Origin: Bradyrhizobium sp.
GTDB taxonomy: Bacteria; Pseudomonadota; Alphaproteobacteria; Rhizobiales; Xanthobacteraceae
Length of the DNA: 64,000 nt
Direction: 5' to 3'
Assembly (NCBI RefSeq): GCF_004799445.1
Contig: NZ_SSNA01000122.1
Coordinates: 1 to 64,000 of the forward strand
This document shows positions 10,688-54,554 of the stretch, one piece after another; within the stretch, counting starts at the first letter, position 1, and each line of letters begins with the position of its first letter. The position numbers and the translations under genes are program-made. The notes under the pieces were generated by a model that was not told where the DNA came from, did no database searches, and saw nothing but the letters and a program-made list of their open reading frames with translations.

Positions 10688-11038
10688 TCAATTATAAACC
10701 CAGATCGGCCGGACCTCGATCGAACCGAACCTGGCGCCGGGAATCCGCGCCGCAATCCCAAGCGCTGCGTCGAGATCCTTGGCCTCGACAAGATAGTAGC
10801 CGCCAAGTTGCTCGCGCGTCTCCGCGAACGGACCATCGGTCGTCAGGGTCTTGCCTTCGCGGACCCGCACGGTGGTCGCGGTCGTGGTCGGCTGCAACCT
10901 GTCACCAGCCTTGAAATTGCCGCTCTGGATGATGGACTGGGTGAAGGCGCCGTATTCTTCCAGCATCTTCTTGCCGGTTGCCGCGTCGATTTTGCCGTAA
11001 TCGGCTTCGTTCTGATAGATCATCAATAAATACTGCAT
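10688..11038 (-). CDS. YCII-related (DGPF) domain protein
   Basis: Small ferredoxin-like-fold protein of the YCII family; enzymatic role unknown. The protein has 116 residues beginning MQYLLMIYQNEADYGK, with the family's typical TTDGPFAETREQLGGYYLVE (the DGPF motif) and ending RPIWVYN. The track start at 11098 adds 20 basic residues that the family lacks; the ATG at 11038 is preceded by an AAGGAG-type site. It lies upstream of the ECF42-like sigma gene on the same strand, separated by a palindromic repeat. In known ECF42 systems the sigma factor activates the neighbouring DGPF genes, so it is the probable target. Confidence 0.9.
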   Translation of the reverse strand: MQYLLMIYQNEADYGKIDAATGKKMLEEYGAFTQSIIQSGNFKAGDRLQPTTTATTVRVREGKTLTTDGPFAETREQLGGYYLVEAKDLDAALGIAARIPGARFGSIEVRPIWVYN

Positions 11039-11150
11039 CGCGCTACTCCTTCTTGATCGGCTTGATCGCCGACACCCAGTCGAACGGGCCAACCGCAAAA
11101 CGACATCTTCAGGATAATTTATTTTAAGGAACCGCGCGGCGGTTATCGGC

Positions 11151-11186: not shown

Positions 11187-11612
11187 TCAGTCGGCCGGAC
11201 GGCCGCTCCCGCTACGGCCGAAAGGCTGCGGGGGAGGAAAGTCCGGGCTCCATCGACATACGGTGCCGGATAACATCCGGCGGGGGCGACCCCAGGGACA
11301 GTGCCACAGAGAACGAACCGCTTCCCCCACCCCTAACGGGAGGGGCAGCAAGGGTGAAAAGGTGCGGTAAGAGCGCACCGCGGGTCCGGCAACGGAACCG
11401 GCATGGCAAACCACACCGGGAGCAAGACCGAATAGGGGCGGCAAGGCGGGCAGTTCGCGCAAGCGATAACGCCGCAGGGCGATGTCAGGCTCGCCGTCCG
11501 GGTAGGTTGCTCGAGGCAACGTGCGAACGTTGTCCCAGAGGAATGGCCGTCACGTATCGTCCGTGCAAGCGGGCGATGCCCTACAGAACCCGGCTTACAG
11601 GCCGGCTGATGC
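11187..11612 (+). ncRNA. rnpB: RNase P RNA, bacterial class A
   Basis: Catalytic RNA of ribonuclease P, which removes tRNA 5' leaders. The conserved P4 5' strand element GAGGAAAGTCCGGGCTCC is at about 11234, the ACAGAA of the 3' P4 half is at about 11584, and the closing CCGGCTTACAGGCCGGCT sits at the 3' end. The 426-base length fits an alphaproteobacterial type A RNA. The extents are estimated from the P1 pairing and may be off by a few bases. ORFs called across it on either strand are spurious. Confidence 0.96.
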
Positions 11613-11620
11613 TCTAAAAT

Positions 11621-11658: not shown

Positions 11659-11763
11659 TGGCGGTCTCCGGTTGCGTCGTCCCGCCGGGCCGTTTGCCTT
11701 GCGAGCGCCATATCCTGCCATTAATGCTAGACAATGGACCGGGTTATCGGTCAGGAGGTCGTC

Positions 11764-12297
11764 TTGAGCCGCTCAGTGTCTTGCATCCGTGCCACGATGG
11801 CGCTCGCCGCGGTCGCGATCATCCTGGGCGGATGCGCGGCGGCGAACAACGCCACGTCGAGCCAGGCGGCAGGCGAGGCCGGGCAGCCCTACAAGACCGC
11901 CTATGGCATCTCAAGCGACGGACCGTCGACCGACCTTTACACTGAACTGTTCGGGCCCAGGCGACGCGACGACCAAACCGTACCCCCGACCGCCGCGACC
12001 CAGCAGGTTCAGCCGGCGCCAACGGTCGCCGCAACCCAGCCCGTTCAACCCGCTGCTGCGCCTGCCTCGTCAACCCGGCCCGGGACCGCAACCGCGTCGA
12101 CCCGCCAGGCCAAACCCGCGATCGCGTCGACGCGACAAGCTCAGCCCGCGCCGGCCCCGGTCGAAGTCGCGCAACAAGCGGCCCCGCCGCCTCCAGCCGA
12201 GCCGGACGTTCCCACGGCTTATGGCATCACGGCCAACGGGCCGACGACCGATCTGTTCACCGAGTTGTTTGGGCCCAGGCGTCGCGACGGCCAGTAA
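11764..12297 (+). CDS. Putative lipoprotein with a duplicated YGI..GP.TDL.TELFGPRRRD segment
   Basis: Function unknown. The N-terminus has a hydrophobic stretch and a lipobox (ILGGC at about residues 18-22), so it is probably lipidated and kept in the envelope. Residues about 42-67 (TAYGISSDGPSTDLYTELFG and onward) are repeated almost exactly at the C-terminus (TAYGITANGPTTDLFTELFG), both ending in GPRRRD. The two copies are separated by about 80 residues rich in Pro, Ala, Gln and Thr that look disordered. I chose TTG 11764 because AGGAGG sits five bases upstream; the ORF track begins earlier at 11734. It follows rnpB directly and precedes the TauE/SafE gene by 43 bases. Confidence 0.75.
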   Translation: MSRSVSCIRATMALAAVAIILGGCAAANNATSSQAAGEAGQPYKTAYGISSDGPSTDLYTELFGPRRRDDQTVPPTAATQQVQPAPTVAATQPVQPAAAPASSTRPGTATASTRQAKPAIASTRQAQPAPAPVEVAQQAAPPPPAEPDVPTAYGITANGPTTDLFTELFGPRRRDGQ

Positions 12298-12340: not shown

Positions 12341-13078
12341 ATGAGCACGCTCGCGTGGACGGTTTTGCTGCTGGGCGCGCTGGCCGGCGGTTTCGTATCC
12401 GGCCTCGCCGGCTTCGGCACCGCGCTGATGGCGCTCGGGATCTGGCTTTATGTTGTGCCGCCGTCGATCGCCGTACCCCTGGTCCTGATCTGCTCCATCG
12501 TTGCGCAAACCTCGACGCTGCCGGCGATCTGGCAGTCGATCAACTTCAGGCTGGTTTGGCCGTTTCTCGTCGGCGGCCTTGCCGGCGTGCCGTTGGGGAC
12601 CATGCTGGTCGCCTATGCCGATCCGCGTATCTTCAACTTGAGCGTCGGCGTGCTGCTGCTGGTATTTCCGACTGCGCTTTATTTCCACCGCAGGCCGATG
12701 ACGCTGAGCTTCGGCGGCCGGACGGCGGACGCAGGAATCGGATTCGCCGGCGGTATCCTTGGCGGCCTGGCCGGTCTGTCAGGTCCTATTCCAATCCTGT
12801 GGGCGAGCGTGCGGGGCTGGGGCAAGGATGAGCGGCGCGGCGTGTTCCAAACCTTCAACTGGACAATACTGAGCGCGGCGCTGTGCGTGCAGGCGGGCGG
12901 CGGATTGATCACGCGGGAAACCATGTGGCTGGGCCTGCTGGTGCTGCCGGCCACGGTGGCAGGGGCCTGGCTCGGCGCACGCACCTATCACGCGCTGAGC
13001 GACGGCAATTTCCGCGATGTGGTGCTTGGCCTGTTGTTCCTGTCCGGCGTCATGTTGGTATGGAGCACGCTGGGGTAG
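12341..13078 (+). CDS. TauE/SafE (TSUP) family sulfite exporter-like permease
   Basis: Inner-membrane permease of the TSUP family, whose members move small organic or inorganic anions such as sulfite or sulfoacetate. The 245 residues form about eight hydrophobic segments. The family's two repeated halves begin LAGGFVSGLAGFGTALMALG and GIGFAGGILGGLAGLSGPI, with the typical GxxxGLxG glycines in each. The substrate cannot be read from the sequence, and neighbours give no metabolic hint. Convergent with the ABC transporter gene, with a shared hairpin between. Confidence 0.88.
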   Translation: MSTLAWTVLLLGALAGGFVSGLAGFGTALMALGIWLYVVPPSIAVPLVLICSIVAQTSTLPAIWQSINFRLVWPFLVGGLAGVPLGTMLVAYADPRIFNLSVGVLLLVFPTALYFHRRPMTLSFGGRTADAGIGFAGGILGGLAGLSGPIPILWASVRGWGKDERRGVFQTFNWTILSAALCVQAGGGLITRETMWLGLLVLPATVAGAWLGARTYHALSDGNFRDVVLGLLFLSGVMLVWSTLG

Positions 13079-53386: not shown

Positions 53387-53390
53387 GTCC

Positions 53391-53512
53391 TGTTCCGAGG
53401 GGAGCTCCGATGAGGAGCTGAGAGACCGCACGCTCAAGTCCTTGTTCGCAAGGGATGCGAGACCGCGGTGACCCTTTGAACCTGATCCGGGTCATGCCGG
53501 CGAAGGGACAGG
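53391..53512 (+). promoter_or_regulatory. TPP riboswitch (THI element)
   Basis: Contains the two sensor elements of the TPP aptamer: GGGGAGCTCCGATGAGGAGC leading into CTGAGAGACCGC, and ACCCTTTGAACCTGATCCGG leading into GTCATGCCGGCGAAGGGA. The thiO ATG at 53514 begins directly after the aptamer, and its ribosome-binding site (GGGACAGGG) is within the closing helix. Ligand binding should therefore block translation initiation, as is usual in Gram-negative bacteria. Confidence 0.97.
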
Positions 53513-53513
53513 G

Positions 53514-54554
53514 ATGTACCAGAGTTCGATACCACAGCGCGGGCATTTGCCCGTCGCGCCCCGAGGGGAATCTCCCGTTTCGGTCATCGGCGCCGGCATT
53601 GCCGGCGCATGGCAGGCGCTGTTGTTCGCGCAGGCCGGCCATCCCGTGACGCTGCACGAACGCAGCGACCAGGCGATGATGCTCTCCACCAGTCACTGGG
53701 CCGGCGGCATGCTGGCGCCCTATTGCGAAAGCGAGGTCGCCGAGCCGATCATCAGCCGGCTCGGCCTGCGCGCGCTCGATCTGTGGCGCCGCGAATTGCC
53801 GGACACGCCGTTCAACGGCTCGCTGGTGGTGGCGCATGCGCGCGACCGCGGCGACTTCGAACGTTTTGCGAAACGGACCTCGGGCCACCGCCGGCTCGAC
53901 GCGCGCGGGCTCGCCGAGCTCGAGCCCTCGCTGGAGGGACGTTTCCGCGACGCGCTGTTCTTTGCCGACGAAGGCCATGTCGAGCCGCGCCGGGTGCTGC
54001 CGAAACTGCACGAGCGGATCGTCGCCGCCGGCGGCACCATCAAATTCAACAGCGAGCCGGGGCCGGATGATATCGAGGGCATCGTGATCGACTGCCGCGG
54101 GCTTTCCGCGCGCGACACGCAAAGCGAATTGCGCGGCGTCAAGGGCGAGCTGATCCTGATCGAGACCGATGAGGTGAAACTGGCGCGGCCGGTGCGGCTG
54201 ATCCATCCGCGCTGGCCGCTCTATGTAATTCCGCGCGAGGACAATCTGTTCATGCTGGGCGCCACCTCGATCGAGGCCGAGGATACCGGCGTCAGCGTGC
54301 GCTCGGCGCTGGAGCTGCTGGGCGCGGCCTATGCGGTGCATCCGGCATTCGCCGAAGCCCGCATCGTCGAATTCGGCTCGGGCTTGCGGCCGGCGTTTCC
54401 CGACAATCTGCCGCGCATCTGTATCGCCAACAACCGCATTTCGGTCAACGGCCTCTATCGCCACGGTTTCCTGATCGCGCCGACGCTGGCGGAGCTGACG
54501 CTCGCCTATGTCGACCAGGGGCGGATCGACAACGAGGTGATGCAATGCGTGTGA
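53514..54554 (+). CDS. thiO: Glycine oxidase ThiO
   Basis: FAD enzyme that oxidises glycine to iminoacetate (dehydroglycine) for thiazole formation. The 346 residues show the FAD fingerprint VSVIGAGIAGAWQALLFAQA at about residues 22-41, then MLSTSHWAGGMLAPYCESEV, a family hallmark, and FMLGATSIEAEDTGV. The C-terminal VNGLYRHGFLIAPTLAELTL closes the FAD site. Its stop overlaps the thiS start. Regulated by the TPP riboswitch directly upstream. Confidence 0.95.
   Translation: MYQSSIPQRGHLPVAPRGESPVSVIGAGIAGAWQALLFAQAGHPVTLHERSDQAMMLSTSHWAGGMLAPYCESEVAEPIISRLGLRALDLWRRELPDTPFNGSLVVAHARDRGDFERFAKRTSGHRRLDARGLAELEPSLEGRFRDALFFADEGHVEPRRVLPKLHERIVAAGGTIKFNSEPGPDDIEGIVIDCRGLSARDTQSELRGVKGELILIETDEVKLARPVRLIHPRWPLYVIPREDNLFMLGATSIEAEDTGVSVRSALELLGAAYAVHPAFAEARIVEFGSGLRPAFPDNLPRICIANNRISVNGLYRHGFLIAPTLAELTLAYVDQGRIDNEVMQCV

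Follow-up and report, generated by a model that had tools for sequence, protein, structure and literature searches.

A putative Bradyrhizobium lipoprotein carrying two conserved, differentiated copies of a short peptide on either side of a variable linker

Why would a small lipoprotein keep two copies of one short peptide, one near its membrane anchor and one at its far end, around a linker that changes from relative to relative? The question is raised by an open reading frame in the window, i.e. the whole stretch of 64,000 nucleotides of Bradyrhizobium sp. (contig NZ_SSNA01000122.1) that was analysed. The putative lipoprotein gene was confirmed at positions 11764-12297 (forward strand, like all parts of the gene named below) and encodes a product of 177 aa with homologues in six other genomes. 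TTG 11764 is likely the start codon, because a ribosome-binding site (AGGAGG, 11753-11758) lies five bases ahead of it and because the start is kept as TTG or GTG in the relatives. Residues 1-24 (MSRSVSCIRATMALAAVAIILGGC; 11764-11835) read as a signal peptide with the lipobox LGGC and the codon of Cys24 at 11833-11835; judged by pattern, they show the positive n-region, the hydrophobic core and the [LVI]-x-[GAS]-Cys sequence expected of a bacterial lipoprotein. The Gly-Cys of the lipobox and the Ala that follows are invariant in all seven homologues, and the protein in the window has no Cys beyond the one predicted to be lipidated. The residue at lipobox position -2 is Gly, not Ala, in two of the seven, which counts against the lipid-anchored strap proposed below. 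A conserved promoter-like block (CCGTTTGCCTTGCGAGCGCCATATCC; 11690-11716) was recognised when the upstream sequences of the seven carriers were compared by eye; it also stands 5' of the gene in a carrier in which the gene occupies a different site (G078), and it has diverged in Bradyrhizobium sp. S69 (G195).

Copy 1 of the peptide (TAYGISSDGPSTDLYTELFGPRRRD) comprises residues 45-69 (11896-11970) and copy 2 (TAYGITANGPTTDLFTELFGPRRRD) residues 151-175 (12214-12288), two residues short of the protein end; between them runs a Pro/Ala/Gln-rich linker (11971-12213). The first-pass annotation had counted about six differences between the copies. Five were found (S/T, S/A, D/N, S/T and Y/F), leaving 20 of 25 positions identical. 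The best ungapped 25-aa self-match of the protein scores 115 with BLOSUM62; 2,000 shuffles averaged 28 and reached 50 at most, and the repeat is thus far outside chance. At the DNA level 43 of 57 bases match across the 19-codon core and synonymous differences are present, so the copies are not a recent DNA duplication. The motif consensus over the homologues is YG-x4-GPTTDLYT-E-[LIF]-F, and every copy has its YG...G frame and TDL[YF]T core.

All seven carriers have exactly two copies, and their placement is regular: the core of copy 1 begins 21-33 residues past the lipobox Cys and only 3-6 residues follow the core of copy 2. From core to core the linker measures 45-94 residues; it varies in sequence and is rich in indels (722 gapped codon cells in the homologue alignment). 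Over the seven homologues, pN/pS was 0.23 for copy 1 and 0.27 for copy 2, compared with 0.56 for the linker, 0.61 for the spacer after the Cys and 0.58 for the signal region; with short regions and seven related sequences, these ratios are descriptive and carry no significance test. Purifying selection acts on both copies, so it is the peptides that are maintained; the length of the linker is free of selection. The earlier proposal of a constrained peptide and a free linker is borne out by these values, and neither of the outcomes that it had named as refuting, homologues with a single copy or none and neutral evolution of the motif, was seen among the carriers.

The two copies differ in a fixed way. 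Core position 6 is D or E in 7/7 first copies and N or G in 7/7 second copies, and core position 15 is E in every copy 1 and A in four of the seven second copies. These copy-specific residues are consistent across two rpoB clades, and to judge from them one copy cannot stand in for the other. The two copies of a genome are no closer to each other than copies taken from different genomes (pN 0.156 vs 0.162), which means that there is no homogenisation and that gene conversion does not explain their likeness. The duplication therefore predates the split of the carriers.

AlphaFold2, run on the seven sequences, returned a mean pLDDT of 52 and a pTM of 0.13, with helices only in the signal peptide and, short and of low confidence, at LYTELF (58-63) and LFTELF (164-169). 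The model agrees with two helix-forming peptides in an otherwise disordered chain, as support rather than proof: the alignment behind it is shallow (seven sequences), and the low pLDDT could also reflect too few sequences. A fold search with this low-confidence model gave no match, as expected.

We propose, with a probability of roughly 0.45, that the protein is a lipid-anchored, intrinsically disordered strap with two putative docking peptides. The N-terminal Cys would be lipidated and probably sits in the outer membrane; the spacer of 21-33 residues would hold copy 1 close to the membrane, and copy 2, at the unattached C-terminal end, would reach into the periplasm on the long, flexible Pro/Ala-rich linker. 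On binding, each copy would probably adopt a turn and then a short TTD-capped helix, with Leu, Tyr, Leu and Phe making up its contact face. The two ends would then dock on related, non-identical sites, for example a pair of subunits, or two faces, of a single envelope assembly; that the sites differ is probable, given the consistently higher acidity of copy 1 compared with copy 2. The bivalent binding module suggested by the first-pass annotation is supported in form (two conserved peptides joined by a free linker), and a picture of two identical binding sites would be too simple for copies that differ consistently across species. Its suggestion of tethering to an envelope complex found no footing, as nothing identifies such a complex as the partner. 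An Lpp-like covalent link to peptidoglycan was considered but not adopted, because the tail at the C-terminus varies and has no conserved Lys.

Two other readings give the copies a different use. In the first, which we regard as unlikely, the two copies pair with each other, inside a single molecule or across molecules; the product would be a pseudo-symmetric hairpin domain or a membrane oligomer, with the linker serving only as a loop. A constant difference in charge between related copies (D/E vs N/G) could suit a pseudo-homodimer, and both copies are always retained together; AlphaFold2, however, does not pair them and builds no packed core (pTM 0.13, shallow alignment). The second, next in order and improbable as well, holds that having one binding peptide in two equivalent copies gives avidity, or redundancy, where the target is repeated or oligomeric. 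The core and frame found in all copies would be explained in this way, but equal copies do not need copy-specific residues that stay consistent in two rpoB clades, in a sample of seven. The strap has points against it too: the genomic neighbours vary between carriers and so name no partner, and most Bradyrhizobium genomes do well without the gene.

A motif profile search detected the gene in 7/272 Bradyrhizobium genomes (six of 249 in an earlier search), among them Bradyrhizobium sp. dw_411, Bradyrhizobium sp. S69 and two metagenome-assembled Bradyrhizobium, and no convincing relative in 150 genomes of the family, 348 of the order or 190 of the class. A whole-protein search returned one relative among 60 related genomes. 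A contig scan with the full protein, whose seeds were mostly linker and spacer peptides, gave nothing; a scan based on the alignment succeeded. Weak motif matches elsewhere (E 0.01-0.05) were rejected as chance, as the frames had no second copy or lipobox, and so was a weak match in a conserved membrane protein with TTTFLYREIFGPLSRD. Since most genomes of the genus are without the gene, any partner either does without the lipoprotein or is equally patchy. The carriers occupy two positions in an rpoB tree of 25 genomes: G217, G430 and G196 group together, whereas G195, G033, G078 and G000 lie among the non-carriers G006 and G025; loss and transfer cannot be told apart in this sample.

That the motif belongs to no known family, as supposed at the outset, agrees with searches of Pfam, NCBIfam, PHROGs, PADLOC and the PDB, which gave no convincing relative. 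The best Pfam match reached 11.7 bits against a cut-off of 27.5, the best NCBIfam matches 13.1 bits against 60 and 10.9 against 450, and the other homologues had nothing better in Pfam than E=0.02. The protein is best filed as a narrow, so far undescribed orphan lipoprotein family of Bradyrhizobium.

Comparison with known systems places it beside three of them. RcsF, the outer-membrane sensory lipoprotein of Escherichia coli, has a folded, disulfide-bonded C-terminal domain and, to our knowledge, no repeated peptide, whereas the protein described here has no Cys after the lipidation Cys and no predicted folded domain, its conserved parts being two short peptides only. The likeness lies in the region after the lipidated Cys, which in RcsF is proline-rich and predicted to be disordered (PMC9907809), as it is after the putative lipidated Cys here; in RcsF a longer linker compensates for a wider periplasm (PMC9907809). 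Short linear motifs and molecular recognition features share with our protein a short conserved peptide, with a small helix predicted, in a variable disordered chain; the present motif differs in matching no family searched and in forming a fixed, differentiated pair at both ends of a secreted lipoprotein.

The third system, Llp of phage T5, is a superinfection-exclusion lipoprotein that binds an outer-membrane protein from the periplasm; we know of no paired peptide in it. As a small accessory lipoprotein it is a possible functional analogue (PMC9586334). A protein of this kind would mask a receptor and block the entry of a phage or bacteriocin, a reading that the patchy presence (7/272) and the insertion of a single gene with its own promoter-like block at new sites would suit as features of an accessory trait. 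We nevertheless consider it quite unlikely: there is no sequence relation to Llp in the phage and PHROG searches, the plasmid and phage searches gave no match, PHROGs returned only matches with E of at least 0.03, PADLOC gave no relative, and in the loci read there is no phage context, with no prophage or defence genes adjoining.

The gene was found at three genomic sites. In the window and in G033, G217, G430 and G196 it lies between rnpB, the conserved upstream neighbour (RNase P RNA class A; 11187-11613, forward strand; Rfam RF00010, 280.6 bits), and a downstream TauE/SafE-family permease gene (12341-13078, forward strand; Pfam PF01925, E=3.8e-31), which is present in four of the five and truncated in G196. 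What is left of this permease in G196 (locus L025, 8584-8801) is residues 182-245, immediately past the lipoprotein stop. In G078 and in the non-carriers in which TauE was reached, an alpha/beta-hydrolase gene on the opposite strand lies between rnpB and TauE; at loci L033, L038, L040, L056, L032, L037 and L156 this hydrolase (KTFLVCHGAWSAGWAWKKMHPLM) stands in place of the lipoprotein. Genes seem to have been exchanged at this interval, and the permease is probably not a functional partner. In G078 the lipoprotein gene is flanked by genes for a class II aldolase and a RidA-family protein, which adjoin in G025 and G073. No remnant of the gene was recognised in non-carriers at the rnpB-TauE interval or at the pump genes described next; only low-complexity matches were obtained.

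G195 has the lipoprotein gene between two same-strand AcrB-type pump genes, which are adjacent in 30 other genomes. This position would fit an RND efflux pump accessory that connects two subunits, a reading we hold very improbable: it concerns one of seven genomes, the other six have different neighbours, and the pumps are retained in relatives that have no such lipoprotein. The insertion (locus L024, 8696-9361) is a lone gene within the RND operon, and joint expression of the pump genes might be affected. A neutral or decaying frame, for which the varying linker and signal peptide and the absence of the gene from most of the genus could speak, is largely refuted by pN/pS and scarcely credible given that all seven frames are intact, that both copies are under purifying selection and that the start and promoter-like region are conserved.

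At its new sites the gene is intact with both copies, and with the promoter-like block kept in G078 it behaves as a single-gene unit that changes place. Because of this shifting, adjacent genes, the pump and TauE among them, are in every case a weaker guide to function. A wider proposal, which we rate as rather unlikely, is a hitherto undescribed class of envelope gene that stands alone and relocates, having entered several chromosomal sites as a single gene together with its promoter. Its product would be a disordered lipoprotein made up solely of a lipid anchor and two differentiated docking peptides, spanning part of the periplasm and linking two specific proteins, or masking a receptor. 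If the strap reading is right, the protein would be a minimal natural two-ended strap in the bacterial envelope, consisting of anchor, peptide, variable linker and peptide; if it is wrong, a small accessory orphan family is what would be left. The peptide is short and well delimited, and its partner could reveal an unrecognised docking site on a Bradyrhizobium envelope protein.

Two further features were noted in the window. A YCII-like gene lies beside rnpB (10691-11044), and two neighbouring copies of it are present in G017 and G035 (loci L053 and L057). A TPP riboswitch was detected at 53388-53526 (Rfam RF00059, 70.8 bits).
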